Shown here: positions 15,318-19,943 of the stretch, one piece after another
Layout: each line of letters starts with the position of its first letter
How positions within the stretch are numbered: the first letter of the stretch is position 1
Assembly: GCF_008974145.1 (NCBI RefSeq)
Contig: NZ_BJKP01000034.1
Span: forward strand, 1-38,921
Direction of reading: 5' to 3'
Length of the DNA stretch: 38,921 nt
Source of the DNA: Microcystis aeruginosa NIES-4325
GTDB taxonomy: Bacteria > Cyanobacteriota > Cyanobacteriia > Cyanobacteriales > Microcystaceae
The notes under the pieces: generated by a model
Databases searched by the model: none
Told to the model about the DNA's origin: nothing
The model's input: the letters and a program-made list of their open reading frames with translations, nothing else
Position numbers and translations under genes: made by a program

Positions 15318-15520
15318 AAATTGGCGGGATAATATCGCCTTTGATAATAGACATTTTTCGCTCAAAGAAATAAGAAAAAAATCTAAAGCTTGCTCCCCAA
15401 AAAAAACGGCTATGCAATTCCTAGTAACTGCTATAGTAATTATCTTAGAGAATCCTCAAGAGAATTATATTCTTCGGAGCAGTAGTCAACCATTTGACGT
15501 AGACATAAATTTTCGGCTTG

Positions 15521-15670
15521 TCAACATCGATTTTCTCGGTGTAAGTCCCATTCAAGATAGGCTAATCTTTCTTTAATTGCTCGATTTTCTGCCGTCAGTA
15601 AACTAATTTGGGTAACTAAATCACTGACTAATTTTTCTAGATGGTGTAGATTGCTATGGGAATTATACAT
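15521..15670 (-). CDS. 49-residue leucine-zipper ORF downstream of Argonaute (possible in-frame stop)
   Basis: A small frame starting at ATG 15670, 11 nt after the Argonaute stop, with AGAGAG upstream as a weak ribosome binding site. The 49 residues form a near-perfect heptad zipper: d positions L11, L18, L25, I32, L39; a positions V15, I22, N29, L36, L43. The buried Asn at an a position is the classical choice for parallel dimers. After the TGA at 15521-15523 the same frame continues for 26 protein-like codons (from QAENLCLRQMVDYCSEEYNS) to a TAA at 15440-15442. The intact ancestor may therefore have been about 76 residues, or the TGA may be read through. Function unknown; position suggests the third gene of the Argonaute operon. 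Confidence 0.5.
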   Translation of the reverse strand: MYNSHSNLHHLEKLVSDLVTQISLLTAENRAIKERLAYLEWDLHRENRC

Positions 15671-15681
15671 AATTTTTCTCT

Positions 15682-17925
15682 CTAAAGCCAGAATTGACAA
15701 TCATCTTCTAATAAACTAGGATAAATTCCTTGTAAGCGTCGATAAGCAATAATGTCCGCTCCATACAAAGGGATAGGTAAACGGGGATCTTTGAGAGAAC
15801 CATAGTGAAGTAAAGTTAATTTTAAGGTAGTGTCAACTAACTGTTTTAAATTTACTTTCTCTCCTAATTCATGAACTTTTAAGCGCAAGGGACGAGGAAC
15901 ACCAATTTTTTCAGAAACTTGGGACGTTATCAGGATAACTTCCCGATTTGATAAAGCTAAAGCTAATCCTTTGGCGGGAGCATTTATCTGTTTTTGCTGA
16001 AGATTATAAAGTCTAGGAATGCCAGTCTTATAACATTCTACGAGAATAAATTTAGCATTAATTGCTCTAGCTCTTGCCAGTAAATTTTCAACCTCCTTTC
16101 CTTGAAATTTACCATCTCTGTAAATGAGAACTGTCTGATTTTTTAGGTCAGCTTGCGGTAAACAATTTTCCAGAATCCGTTGAGGAATTTCTTCTCCTTC
16201 GGTTAAACTATCTTCTACCCGACAGCGAACAAATTCTCCCTGTTTTCCATATAGTCGCACACTTGCACAAACATTGAGACTCCCCGGAAGATTTTTTTTA
16301 GGCATCCTTCCCACATCTAAACCAATAAAATAATCGGCAATTTCTAGAGGTTCAGCAAGGACATAGGGTAAATTTCCTAATTTGGCTAGGATTCCGGGGA
16401 CAACTTGATGGAGAATATTATTATATTGACCCTTATTATTTAAAGTCTTTTCATAAATCATTTGAGTTATAACTCCACGATCCAGAAACTTTTTTTTTAT
16501 CCAGGAATATAAACTCCCTTCTTCAGTATTATCCGCATTGCGATCAGACTGGGGAAGAAATACTAAGGCAATATCTACAGGAATTTCTCCTCGAATTAAT
16601 TGATCAACTGCTTCTTCCAGTCTAGCTCTTTTTTCAGAACCTTCACCTTCGACAGAAAAATTTATTTGATTCTCTGGTGGCAAAATAGTCCCAAATTTAT
16701 AAAGCTTTAATCGGGTTTCTAATTGTTCTCTAAAATCTCCTACTTTAAAACTATCTGGTTTGAGAATAGCTAAACGAATTTTACGAGCAGGATCAACATA
16801 TTCTCGATGACGTTTATATACACCCCCCTTCGATAATCCTTTGAGAGTTTCTCTTTTTTCTCCCCTTTCTCCCTTACCAAATAAGATAGGAGTTTGCTCA
16901 AGAGAAATAGAAGGAGTCCAAAAGAATTCGGGGTATTCTTGGCTGTTAATACTTCTTTCTCTTAACTGAAATCCAAAGTTATTTAAAGTATTTTGTGCTT
17001 CCTGTTTATATAACTTTAATAGTTCTTGTCGTTTAGCATAGGAAATTTTTGTTTCCTTTAATAAGTCTCCGTAATTGACTTGAAATAAACTCTCATCCTT
17101 ATCTGTCATACAGGGTTTTAAAGCTGCTAATGGATAAATATAATCCTGGGGATTTTTGCCAAATTGTACCGCCACCACTGGTTGATCTAGATGAGCTTCT
17201 TCTAATTTTCTTCGACTAATTGAACCCGTAGCTTTTGTTAATAGATACTCTCTTTTTTCCCCAATTGTACCCGCTATTCTAATAATTTTAGCTGTCCCAT
17301 TAGTTTCTATAGTTTTAACCTTTAAACCTACTAATAATTTAGCAGCATCTTGTCTATAGGGGTGATTTTCATAAAATTGTTCTAAATCTCCACTATAGAC
17401 AATACTACTGTCAACAGTTAAACAAATAGCCGGATCGGTGTCATTGATGATTTCTGCCCAAAAGTTAACTTCTCTCCTTACCTGTACTTGGTTTTCACTT
17501 ATCTCACTATCTTTAGGAAAAACTATTGGATAGGAAAATTTACCAAATATTTTCAGAATTCTAACTGCTAATTGTGCTGTAACTAAAGCTGTTATCTGAA
17601 AGTCTTTTAGCCAATGAATAGAATAATAGTAATCGCCAATATCTTCTCGTAAAACCTCTTGAATATCTGATAAAGCTTCTTTCCACTGTTGTGGAGAGGG
17701 AAGAAATTTTTCATCTTTAGCTAATACCCAAAAACAATTATCTTCAAAAATAACCACCACATTGGGAAACTTATGACTGAATTGCCAACTAAAACGATTG
17801 CCTATTTTCCTAGTAATTTGATGATTAAACTTAAAACAATTCAAACAACTATTCTTGAGAGTTAAGGAACTAATTTCACTCAAAAATATTGGGGAGTTGG
17901 CTGTGTTAGCTACTGTGTAATTCAT
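15682..17925 (-). CDS. ago: Long prokaryotic Argonaute, predicted catalytically active
   Basis: A 747-residue long-type Argonaute, the class that cleaves DNA complementary to short 5'-phosphorylated guides and is used against plasmids and phages. Layout: N and linker regions (1-150), PAZ-like (about 155-290), linker, MID (about 380-525), PIWI (about 528-747). The MID pocket is complete by alignment with human AGO2: Y473, K477 (YSWIK), Q488 (VITQMI), K515 (AKLGN). The PIWI tetrad is D537 (FIGLDVGR), E578 (in EGEEIP; E579 possible), D604 (IYRDGK) and D724 (YGADIIAYRR), i.e. DEDD. ATG 17925 has an AAGGAGG site lying inside the last codons of the nuclease gene, 3 nt after its stop, so translation is coupled. 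The gene is AT-rich. Confidence 0.95.
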   Translation of the reverse strand: MNYTVANTANSPIFLSEISSLTLKNSCLNCFKFNHQITRKIGNRFSWQFSHKFPNVVVIFEDNCFWVLAKDEKFLPSPQQWKEALSDIQEVLREDIGDYYYSIHWLKDFQITALVTAQLAVRILKIFGKFSYPIVFPKDSEISENQVQVRREVNFWAEIINDTDPAICLTVDSSIVYSGDLEQFYENHPYRQDAAKLLVGLKVKTIETNGTAKIIRIAGTIGEKREYLLTKATGSISRRKLEEAHLDQPVVAVQFGKNPQDYIYPLAALKPCMTDKDESLFQVNYGDLLKETKISYAKRQELLKLYKQEAQNTLNNFGFQLRERSINSQEYPEFFWTPSISLEQTPILFGKGERGEKRETLKGLSKGGVYKRHREYVDPARKIRLAILKPDSFKVGDFREQLETRLKLYKFGTILPPENQINFSVEGEGSEKRARLEEAVDQLIRGEIPVDIALVFLPQSDRNADNTEEGSLYSWIKKKFLDRGVITQMIYEKTLNNKGQYNNILHQVVPGILAKLGNLPYVLAEPLEIADYFIGLDVGRMPKKNLPGSLNVCASVRLYGKQGEFVRCRVEDSLTEGEEIPQRILENCLPQADLKNQTVLIYRDGKFQGKEVENLLARARAINAKFILVECYKTGIPRLYNLQQKQINAPAKGLALALSNREVILITSQVSEKIGVPRPLRLKVHELGEKVNLKQLVDTTLKLTLLHYGSLKDPRLPIPLYGADIIAYRRLQGIYPSLLEDDCQFWL

Positions 17926-17928
17926 GAT

Positions 17929-18759
17929 CTAAACCTCCTTATTTGCATAATCACAAATCGATGTAAAAGGACAATAACGACAGGCATAGCCACTTTGTGG
18001 CGGGAAAATATGATAAAAATCTTCGGGGTGATCTTTATATTTTTTTAGTTGTTGCTGATGTTTTTTGGACAGGAAAGCTAGTTCGATTTTAACTGCTTCT
18101 ATTGCCTCGGAAGACAGGGATATTTTTTCTGAGCTTGTTTGGGTTTCTAAATTGTAAAAAGAAGCCACAATTTTTTTCTGAGGATAACGGTAACTAGCCG
18201 CTAGTAAATACACATGAGCCTGACGACGATCAAAATTAGATTGACCAGTTTTTAAATCTAAAATATGTATAGTGTCATCAGCTTCTCTAAAAATACAATC
18301 GAAGGCAGCGTACAAATTAAACCGATAGTTACCTTGCTCGATAATAATAGGTTCTGGATAACCTTCATCGCCTCTAGATAAATTAATAATCTCTTGATTC
18401 AATAAAATTGATTGTTGATAGTAATTGTTTAAAATTACTAAAACCCTGGCTTGAATTTCTGGAGATTCTTGATTTAATTGCAGGATTTCTGCGACTTGTT
18501 CCACCCCATCAGAACCGGATAATCTCGCTGGCTCTTGATGAAACTCAAAAACTCCTCGTTGTGCTAACTTACCAATTTTTTGCGCTTGATTATCTTGTGA
18601 TAGTAATCTTTGGACTTCTGGTTCTTTGTTTCGCGCTTTTTCAAACCCCCGTTTTGTCTGACAATGCCAATTCTCATGACCGATCGCCGGTTTAAGCGAT
18701 CGCCAAAGAAGATAGCTCATTGGAGGATGCCAAGGCTTTTTGGGTAACTGGCAGGACAC
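17929..18759 (-). CDS. RecB/Cas4-like PD-(D/E)XK nuclease with Fe-S cysteines, partner of Argonaute
   Basis: A 276-residue nuclease of the RecB/Cas4 type. The PD-(D/E)XK core is visible: D154 (AAFDCIF), D168-L-K170 (ILDLKTG) and the QxxxY motif Q180-AHV-Y184. Three C-terminal cysteines (C260, C263, C269 in CRYCPFTSIC) plus C33 near the N-terminus match the split arrangement of a 4Fe-4S cluster in Cas4/AddB nucleases. I chose GTG 18759 because CGAGGGG stands about 9 nt upstream; an ATG at 18720 has no such site. The stop is 3 nt before the Argonaute start. Cas4-like nucleases are known neighbours of long Argonautes and may make or extend guide or target ends; the exact role is inference. Confidence 0.9.
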   Translation of the reverse strand: MSCQLPKKPWHPPMSYLLWRSLKPAIGHENWHCQTKRGFEKARNKEPEVQRLLSQDNQAQKIGKLAQRGVFEFHQEPARLSGSDGVEQVAEILQLNQESPEIQARVLVILNNYYQQSILLNQEIINLSRGDEGYPEPIIIEQGNYRFNLYAAFDCIFREADDTIHILDLKTGQSNFDRRQAHVYLLAASYRYPQKKIVASFYNLETQTSSEKISLSSEAIEAVKIELAFLSKKHQQQLKKYKDHPEDFYHIFPPQSGYACRYCPFTSICDYANKEV

Positions 18760-18815
18760 AATTTTTCCCCTCGGTCAGGATAATGCTAGGATGATACGGC
18801 AGTGTTTGCTCTGGT

Positions 18816-18834
18816 GTTGACTAAAATAATCAAC
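18816..18834. promoter_or_regulatory. Operator-like 19-bp inverted repeat on the nuclease-Argonaute side
   Basis: The sequence GTTGACTAAAATAATCAAC has arms GTTGA and TCAAC. Read on the minus strand it matches the second site at 18859-18877 in 15 of 19 positions, with differences only in the central four A/T bases. It lies 57 nt upstream of the GTG start of the nuclease, where a repressor would block the nuclease-Argonaute operon. The presumed binder is the XRE protein encoded divergently at 18916; this is inference. Confidence 0.6.
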
Positions 18835-18858
18835 GCCAATGAACTAACTCTAGCCTAT

Positions 18859-18889
18859 GTTGATTTAAATAGTCAACCCTTGATATAAT
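18859..18889 (+). promoter_or_regulatory. Second operator and overlapping promoter of the XRE-ImmA genes
   Basis: The 19-bp repeat GTTGATTTAAATAGTCAAC at 18859-18877 is followed by a TATAAT -10 box at 18884-18889. TTGATT at 18860-18865, inside the operator, stands 18 bp upstream of TATAAT as a -35 box. A repressor bound here would cover the -35 box, as expected for autoregulation of the xre gene. Centre-to-centre distance to the other site is 43 bp, about four helical turns. Confidence 0.6.
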
Positions 18890-18915
18890 TTTTTTGAGCG
18901 GTTGGGAGAAAAGCA

Positions 18916-19272
18916 GTGTCAGAAACATTTGGACAGGTTATCCGCAAAGCTCGTCGAGAGGAGGAATATAGTCAGAGAGAACTAGCTAAGTTGATCGGGG
19001 TGGACTATACCTATCTATCAAAGCTAGAAAATGATCATGCGGGTTATCCTCCTAGTCAGCAAGTTATTGAGTCCTTAGCGACTCATTTAAAATTAAATGC
19101 TCAAACCTTAGGGGAATTGGCGGGACGAATTAGTTCAGATGATCAAAAAGTCTTCAAAGAATTAGTTCAAAAATACCAACAAATGCCGATTTTATTGCGT
19201 CGCATGAAAGACAATCCCAATTTTGCCAAAAAAATTATTTCTGAGGCGACAAAATTAGAACCAGAGGAGTAA
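18916..19272 (+). CDS. XRE-family transcriptional regulator
   Basis: A 118-residue protein with an N-terminal Cro/C1-type helix-turn-helix (about residues 6-66: FGQVIRKARREEEYSQRELA, then YLSKLEN). A charged helical tail ends in KKIISEATKLEPEE. The start is GTG 18916, supported by GGGAG about 7 nt upstream. The ImmA-like gene follows after 5 nt. Such pairs act as repressor and anti-repressor protease in phage-like switches (ImmR-ImmA of ICEBs1; DdrO-IrrE of Deinococcus). Two operator-like repeats lie between it and the divergent nuclease-Argonaute operon, so it probably represses both its own promoter and that operon. Whether it is linked to Argonaute or is an independent neighbour is not proven. 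Confidence 0.9.
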   Translation: MSETFGQVIRKARREEEYSQRELAKLIGVDYTYLSKLENDHAGYPPSQQVIESLATHLKLNAQTLGELAGRISSDDQKVFKELVQKYQQMPILLRRMKDNPNFAKKIISEATKLEPEE

Positions 19273-19277
19273 ATATC

Positions 19278-19943
19278 TTGGATATTATTAAACCCTATAG
19301 TTTTATTCCCAAAACAGTGATTGAAGCTCAGGCAGACAATATTCTGAAGAAAGTAAAAGCTCATCGTCGTCGTCCCTTAAAAAATTGCGATATTGCGGAA
19401 GCAGCGGCTGATTATTTTGATTTAGCTATTGAATGGACGGATATAAAGCCAGATCAAGAGGGAGAAATCGCCGCAATGATTATTCCCACAGAAAAGAAAA
19501 TTATTCTCAATGAAGATGTAAAGTTCTTAAAAGATTACCAAAATTCATCCCTAGCAAAAGAAGGATTTAAAAATTCGAGTTTAGCCCATGAAATTGGTCA
19601 TTTTGTCCTTCATATTAATCAAACGGCCGTCTCTAACTTTTTAGATCGAATCAATCAGGGAGATTCCTTAGAGACAATTCAACCTTTTCTTTGTCGGACA
19701 GTTGATTCTAGCCAAAGAATTGAATGGCAAGCCCAATATTTTGCCAGTTGTTTACTAATGCCGATGAGTGAGTTAGAGAAAGCCATCAAGGGACGTGACT
19801 TGACTAAATGGCGACATCTGTATGCGATCGCCGACGAGTTGGGAGTAACTATTACTAATCTTAGAAGTCGTTTAGAAAGTCTCCATTGGATTAAAGTCGA
19901 TAAAAAAGTAATTTATCCCGGCAGTAATTTTCCCAAGAGATAG
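19278..19943 (+). CDS. ImmA/IrrE-family metallopeptidase
   Basis: A 221-residue COG2856 zinc peptidase. The motif SLAHEIGHFV supplies H104, E105 and H108; E149 in IEWQAQYFASCLLMP is the likely third metal ligand. The C-terminal part (about residues 175-205) is a predicted helical or winged-helix stretch (LTKWRHLYAIADELGVTITN). Family members cleave an XRE-type repressor on DNA damage or stress and so switch on linked genes. The start is TTG 19278, chosen because AGAGGAG at the end of the xre gene is well placed. It sits 5 nt after the xre stop and is surely co-transcribed. It converges with rbcR downstream. Confidence 0.9.
   Translation: MDIIKPYSFIPKTVIEAQADNILKKVKAHRRRPLKNCDIAEAAADYFDLAIEWTDIKPDQEGEIAAMIIPTEKKIILNEDVKFLKDYQNSSLAKEGFKNSSLAHEIGHFVLHINQTAVSNFLDRINQGDSLETIQPFLCRTVDSSQRIEWQAQYFASCLLMPMSELEKAIKGRDLTKWRHLYAIADELGVTITNLRSRLESLHWIKVDKKVIYPGSNFPKR

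Follow-up and report, generated by a model that had tools for sequence, protein, structure and literature searches.

Among the closest described relatives of the locus considered here are two-protein switches in which a peptidase activated by single-stranded DNA (ssDNA) cuts a repressor. In the available parts of one report, the ssDNA-activated CapP cleaves the repressor CapH and controls adjacent immune operons, and either CapW or CapH with CapP is linked to BREX, Pycsar, CBASS, DISARM, and Bub (PMC13373217); its main text never uses the word Argonaute. Similarly, PprI is activated by ssDNA and cuts DdrO, with residues of its GAF domain contributing to ssDNA binding (PMC10904395, accessible portion). 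On the effector side, the association of Argonaute with a Cas4-like nuclease in Microcystis has already been published under a same-strand operon rule (PMC2743648, in part), while SeAgo limits transformation and RSF1010 plasmids, the latter being limited by a Cas4-like nuclease as well (PMC10653904, in part). By the terms searched, the available parts of these two papers contain no XRE, helix-turn-helix (HTH), or peptidase partner of Argonaute, and the main texts of PMC2743648 and PMC6299218 use none of the regulator or peptidase words looked for. Here we describe a 38,921-nucleotide stretch of Microcystis aeruginosa NIES-4325 (contig NZ_BJKP01000034.1, positions 1 to 38,921; hereafter the window), in which a nuclease-Argonaute operon lies back to back with genes for an XRE-family protein and an ImmA-like peptidase. 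To our knowledge, what turns prokaryotic Argonautes on, and at what point, is still largely an open question. A preliminary description of this DNA, made from its letters, knew of no Argonaute locus under XRE-ImmA control, and none was found in the open-access literature, where the matches for ImmA, XRE, and IrrE were irrelevant by title; likewise, nothing relevant by title to the regulation of prokaryotic Argonautes stood among the matches listed.

Our reading, to which we give a probability of about 0.72, is that a two-gene, CapH/CapP-like proteolytic switch controls the Argonaute defense operon, which would stay repressed until a signal activates proteolysis. Gene identities, divergent linkage, operators over both predicted promoters, the covariation of these operators with the XRE protein, catalytic residues, and the CapP/IrrE fold of the peptidase were computed here. 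The genes named in the preliminary description were all found in the window, with spans exact or off by a few bases. On the minus strand, the gene for a Cas4-like PD-(D/E)XK nuclease is followed after 3 bases by ago, and the two are taken as an operon. On the plus strand, divergent from them, an XRE gene precedes an M78 peptidase gene, as the open reading frames (ORFs), Pfam HTH_3 and Peptidase_M78, and PADLOC capH and capP all confirm. The start codons of the nuclease and XRE genes are separated by 156 bp, and this divergent interval contains two 19-bp palindromes, in agreement with the earlier proposal of operators shared by both operons; the HTH partner is adjacent, with predicted operators at the defense promoter. 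The features are as follows.

15682..17925, minus strand: ago, long prokaryotic Argonaute, 747 aa (ORF, PADLOC, Pfam, structure match, alignment)
17929..18759, minus strand: Cas4-like PD-(D/E)XK nuclease, 276 aa, GTG start (ORF, PADLOC, alignment)
18816..18834, no strand: putative operator O1, GTTGACTAAAATAATCAAC, a palindrome; a site at about -100 from the XRE start occurs in other loci also
18859..18877, no strand: putative operator O2, GTTGATTTAAATAGTCAAC, a palindrome whose half-sites are the predicted -35 boxes of both divergent promoters
18847..18876, minus strand: predicted nuclease-ago promoter, -35 TTGACT, 18-nt spacer, -10 TAGAGT (consensus match)
18860..18889, plus strand: predicted xre-immA promoter, -35 TTGATT, 18-nt spacer, -10 TATAAT (consensus match)
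18916..19272, plus strand: putative XRE-family repressor, 118 aa, CapH/ImmR/DdrO-like HTH and C-terminal helices
19144..19155, plus strand: codons of a 4-residue XRE insertion (residues 77-80) within the helix that follows the HTH domain, covarying with operator spacing
19278..19943, plus strand: ImmA/CapP-like zinc peptidase, 221 aa, TTG start
19587..19601, plus strand: HEIGH zinc-binding/catalytic motif, H104-H108, with the presumed third ligand E149 downstream
19692..19694, plus strand: C139, candidate cysteine switch (role by analogy with CapP/VapB52)
15521..15670, minus strand: "mini-zipper" ORF, 49 aa, downstream of ago, probably outside the module

In Deinococcus, DdrO and PprI/IrrE combine a GAF-bearing peptidase with a DNA-damage regulon, whereas the strict palindrome of the window is nearly confined to one locus in the genomes examined, among the matches listed. 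The locus also differs from CapH and CapP, in that the neighbors are Argonaute and a Cas4-like nuclease, the peptidase is too short to hold a GAF domain, and the palindromes are of the types TTGA-N8-TCAA (N8) and TTGA-N9-TCAA (N9). It resembles ImmR and ImmA of ICEBs1 in joining a short XRE repressor to a short ImmA peptidase (PMC2701414, accessible portion), ImmR (7t8i) being among the structure matches of the XRE protein; unlike ImmR, which represses a mobile element, its presumed target is a defense operon. The effector pair is that of the long Argonautes with Cas4-like nuclease in the available parts of PMC2743648 (Microcystis) and PMC10653904 (SeAgo).

The linkage holds well beyond Microcystis. 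In a search of 291 genomes of the order, 63 had Argonaute, which came to 65 loci once split matches were merged, and 131 had a relative of the peptidase. The peptidase lies within 10 kb of Argonaute in 42 of the 65 loci, always on the opposite strand (42/42), and these linked loci span 14 families and 20 genera, so that the co-occurrence which the preliminary description proposed to look for is indeed present. Uniform placement in assumed 5.5-Mb genomes would give about 0.27 such co-locations, a rough yardstick only, because the loci are related by descent. Among the 57 loci with at least 40% Argonaute identity, the pair stands in 37 of the 44 in which the nuclease is accompanied by an Argonaute counted as intact (ORF not shorter than 690 aa, match longer than 650 residues; L087 and L095, damaged near the N terminus, are included), and in 5 of 11 with a broken or partial Argonaute. 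A phylum-wide draw had Argonaute in 24 of 386 genomes; seven further loci fetched comprise four lacking XRE and ImmA and three full modules, two of them outside the order and one on the plasmid pCENA543b. The extra loci L225-L235 were scanned with a G-anchored pattern and enter none of the locus counts, and the correlation of distances covers 25 loci, with near-identical, fused, and broken ones dropped, and is uncorrected for species relatedness.

The pair is not exclusive to Argonaute, because among the 150 peptidase places listed 44 are near an Argonaute and 106 are not; 55 of these 106 were fetched for comparison. The preliminary description had held that pairs standing equally often beside unrelated genes, in sister strains with Argonaute elsewhere, would speak against it. 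This is seen only in part: such relatives do stand elsewhere, but the 55 fetched are set apart by their place on the peptidase tree and, mostly, by a different operator spacing. On this tree of 39 Argonaute-linked and 53 other rows (92 in all), 2 label changes suffice, vs about 30 when the labels are shuffled. The association with Argonaute looks old and stable, not that of a random neighbor.

The two palindromes of the window, GTTGAY-N7-RTCAAC at 18816-18834 and 18859-18877, lie 43 bp apart from start to start, and the pattern is absent from 100 dinucleotide shuffles of the window. Within 150 bp upstream of XRE, 30 of 43 Argonaute-linked loci hold N9 sites (44 sites; 0.2 expected) and 6 hold N8 sites (6 sites), while in the 55 non-Argonaute loci the proportions are reversed, with 125 N8 sites in 53 loci and two N9 sites in 2 loci. 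In 24 of the 43 loci the XRE start is preceded at 42-70 bp by an exact N9 site. In 23 of these 24 the left half-site is followed on the plus strand, after 17-18 nt, by a hexamer like a -10 box (second base A, sixth base T), vs 5.0 with shuffled flanks; on the minus strand the same is true of the right half-site in 21, vs 4.7. Because this geometry is kept on both strands, one operator seems to hold the -35 boxes of both promoters. Moreover, of 42 loci that keep XRE, 38 have an N8 or N9 site no more than 1 kb from the nuclease, vs 3 of 13 XRE-less loci with a nuclease match (13 of 15 such loci were used; a short contig and a partial nuclease were left out). Palindrome counts in Microcystis genomes do not support a genome-wide XRE regulon: the loose form RTTGAY-N7-RTCAAY has 12-27 sites per genome, vs 1-5 for a reversed-pattern control, and 17 in G236, a genome without the module, while the strict form has 3 sites in G257, 2 of them at the module locus, among the matches listed.

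Operator spacing goes together with a feature of the XRE protein. Of the 40 Argonaute-linked XREs that could be aligned (two fused XRE-ImmA proteins and a remnant being set aside), 32 carry an insertion of 4 residues (77-80); none of 55 other XREs has it. The 32 insertion-bearing loci have N9 sites in 29 cases, N8 in one, both in one, and neither in one. All 8 insertion-less Argonaute-linked loci are of N8 type, 5 of which are so classed only if one mismatch is tolerated, and the 55 insertion-less loci elsewhere divide into 52 of N8 type (1 with one mismatch), 2 with both, and 1 of N9 type with one mismatch. The two states agree in 84 of the 86 peptidase-tree rows that bear both, and in all three loci fetched for another purpose. 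In the predicted XRE model the insertion falls within the helix 74-89, which joins the DNA-binding domain to the C-terminal helices, so that one more turn of helix might displace the second half-site by a single base. This covariation suggests, indirectly and from sequence comparison, that XRE binds the palindromes.

The XRE protein of the window matches Pfam HTH_3 and PADLOC capH (35.7 bits), and a conserved MPxLLRRM stretch in its C terminus is, as a guess, a possible cleavage region. The adjoining peptidase matches Pfam Peptidase_M78 (38.7 bits, cut-off 22) and PADLOC capP (72.9 bits, covering only profile positions 4-150 of 242), and CapP is its closest structure as well as its closest profile; it has the CapP/IrrE fold. 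The roles of the conserved residues of peptidase, nuclease, and Argonaute are those carried over from relatives, and the alignments of the three proteins include only loci with long ORFs. By sequence, the peptidase has the HExxH and third Glu of IrrE/M78 zinc peptidases: H104, E105, and E149 are found in 42 of 42 aligned proteins and H108 in at least 90%. C139 stands between HExxH and this Glu; a Cys occupies its position in 38 of 39 relatives linked to Argonaute and in 52 of 53 of the rest, and CapP/VapB52 serve as models for a cysteine switch in the available parts of PMC13273310. At 221 vs 291 residues, the window peptidase lacks the GAF-like C-terminal domain of CapP, and its predicted model ends with two helices and two short strands (residues 178-214); because of this we call it CapP-like, not CapP.

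The effectors appear complete. The window Argonaute matches PADLOC pAgo_II (1157.7 bits, residues 5-747), Pfam Piwi (57.5 bits), and the structure 9iad over its full length (745 aa); in the contig search its named relatives are five, all Microcystis. D537, E578, and D604 are invariant in 39 of 39 aligned homologues and D724 occurs in at least 90%, and these four we take to be the DEDX catalytic tetrad of PIWI, so that by its residues this is a long, catalytically complete Argonaute. The nuclease matches PADLOC Aga_Cas4-like_Nuc (PDLC02405) at 441.5 bits, beginning at residue 10, which makes its start codon uncertain. D154, D168, K170, Q180, and Y184 are invariant in 33 of 33 aligned homologues, as are C33, C260, C263, and C269, presumably the ligands of an Fe-S cluster.

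A mechanism consistent with these data would run as follows. XRE would bind the TTGA-N9-TCAA palindromes, whose half-sites would be the -35 boxes of the two divergent promoters, and so repress both its own xre-immA operon and the nuclease-Argonaute operon. A signal, which by analogy with CapP and PprI may be ssDNA or something else that arises from DNA damage, infection, or incoming DNA, would activate the ImmA-like peptidase; this would cut the repressor in its C-terminal region and derepress both operons. Nuclease and Argonaute would then attack the invading DNA, and fresh repressor synthesis would reset the circuit. Binding, repression, cleavage, signal, induction, and defense we infer from the described systems. 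Regarding the trigger, a tentative extension, against which we would sooner bet, is that it is the effectors' own substrate: ssDNA from transformation, conjugation, or phage replication may activate the peptidase and free the nuclease-Argonaute operon. If so, Argonaute immunity in these cyanobacteria would be inducible through a dedicated ssDNA or DNA-damage sensor, and not constitutive. We infer ssDNA sensing rather than read it from the protein, because the peptidase has no room for a GAF domain; the inducer may differ from ssDNA, since the C-terminal third is missing and GAF residues contribute to ssDNA binding in PprI (PMC10904395, in part).

The analysis suggests that a bloom-forming cyanobacterium and many of its relatives keep an Argonaute defense off until a signal makes a protease remove its repressor. 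As the repressor-protease pair is kept with its operators across many cyanobacteria, Argonaute switching becomes directly testable, and the covariation of spacing and insertion offers a simple handle on operator specificity. If the reading is right, protease-switched control of immune operons would extend from CBASS-like systems to guide-directed nucleases. The protease switch of the preliminary description is supported in part, by stable linkage, palindromes shared over both predicted promoters, and XRE covariation, and loses one member: its three minus-strand ORFs exist in the window, and the mini-zipper among them, not being conserved, does not belong to the module.

Several observations weigh against the proteolytic switch. 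The peptidase is without the C-terminal third of CapP, and in L100 (G206) it has an internal stop while adjoining an intact Argonaute. The best PADLOC model for the window XRE is HTH_VI, not capH, and the HTH folds of many XRE proteins match it about equally, so its fold is not discriminating. The promoter-geometry test took in only 24 of 43 loci (11 genera, 8 of them Microcystis), a promoter scan of the window finds 17 promoter-like sites vs 13.8 in shuffles, which is no excess, and L081, L083, and L084 have no recognizable palindrome. Only 3 phylogenetically independent pairs bear on the covariation; all agree (sign test, p 0.25). Finally, 7 of the 44 intact Argonaute-nuclease loci (1 on a short contig) have no XRE-ImmA and the switch must therefore be dispensable, and the pair is found with neither of 2 intact Argonautes without nuclease nor any of 8 Argonautes below 40% identity.

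Some of these facts could be read otherwise. XRE-ImmA might be a self-contained addiction pair of toxin-antitoxin type (Xre-COG2856), whose proximity to ago reflects retention of an island and not regulation. Such pairs have been predicted as toxin-antitoxin systems in the accessible portion of PMC2701414, which nonetheless favors a protease-repressor cascade for the family, and the module comes and goes (Argonaute in 10 of 12 Microcystis genomes, a scar in G292, a plasmid copy); addiction has no need, however, of a divergent layout with operators on both promoters, and some intact Argonaute-nuclease loci do without the pair, so we consider it improbable. To the same degree we doubt that the pair is a generic mobile cassette controlling only itself, next to a nuclease-ago operon with its own unregulated promoter. 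The 106 of 150 listed relatives away from Argonaute would fit a cassette, and so would the 286 to 1061 bp between XRE and nuclease in 20 loci, but 14 of these 20 spacers hold an ORF in the nuclease direction, 21 of 24 loci preserve the promoter geometry of the minus strand, and the relatives elsewhere differ in operator spacing.

The proteins might also act in another manner, XRE as an activator, or ImmA inactivating XRE by binding and not by cleavage, with stress induction other than proposed. Some XRE proteins can indeed act as activators, and the cleavage step of the proteolytic switch is drawn from analogy. Yet O2 lies over the predicted -35 boxes, the classical position of a repressor, and HExxH with the third Glu is invariant or nearly so; CapP cleaves CapH (PMC13373217), PprI cleaves DdrO (PMC10904395), and the inactivation of ImmR is proteolytic and needs ImmA (PMC2701414), each in the parts available. 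We regard this alternative as very unlikely.

The mini-zipper, with a sub-threshold ZapB match, was rejected as a member of the module: tblastn matches occur in 4 of 65 Argonaute loci, all Microcystis (L067, L069, L073, and partly L068), and also partly in L224. The ORFs of the 14 long spacers, sorted by eye, were recognized in the nuclease direction, none being recognized in the other 6. Those of L076, L091, L094, L099, L101, and L103 look similar, with 193-223 aa in the nuclease direction and a start 77-153 bp from XRE; the only one tested, from L099, matches MMADHC (PF10229). L080-L085, L089, and L095 carry one kind of minus-strand ORF of 63-94 aa upstream of the nuclease, starting 126-332 bp from XRE, and the two tested gave no Pfam match above cut-off. 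In L081 (G255) and L083 (G033), XRE and ImmA are fused in a single ORF of 357-361 aa; a further, unfused ImmA gene comes after it, with nuclease and Argonaute alongside. L096 (G127), whose Argonaute and ImmA have in-frame stops, holds eight copies of the 19-bp palindrome within its 1061-bp XRE-nuclease spacer. An orphan XRE in G015 has no Argonaute, and the 9 kb fetched around it hold no ImmA match or G-anchored palindrome.

Away from Argonaute, in L126-L165 and L171-L185, XRE-ImmA is often divergent from genes for unknown proteins, with N8 palindromes upstream. The examples inspected have coiled-coil and unknown proteins as neighbors, among them a coiled-coil pair of about 330 and 365 aa, a protein of 230-258 aa, and one of 90-140 aa; those tested gave no Pfam match above cut-off. 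These sister-group loci are possibly another regulated stress or defense system.

Regarding mobility, no relatives of the window ImmA were found in the phage collection searched, and on plasmids there are two records, one being the Argonaute plasmid. That plasmid is the mobilizable pCENA543b of Nostoc sp. CENA543 (L219), which carries the whole module together with integrase and transposase genes. Its RefSeq annotation names HTH, ImmA/IrrE, PD-(D/E)XK, and Piwi side by side, while the open-access literature searched is silent, so the genes of the module are annotated though not discussed. For Argonaute plasmids outside cyanobacteria, 4 of 9 other matches were viewed, and none of the four has an ImmA/IrrE protein annotated less than 5 kb away; in one an HTH protein lies at about 2.5 kb, and in another a regulator and a "metal-dependent hydrolase" lie at about 4 kb. 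Of 12 Microcystis genomes, 10 have an Argonaute. In G292 (L216), which has none, only the last 33 peptidase residues are matched in the 4 kb fetched, between lysR and an isoamylase gene; since only this C-terminal remnant is left, the module seems deleted there, and the DNA at the scar resembles an insertion sequence.

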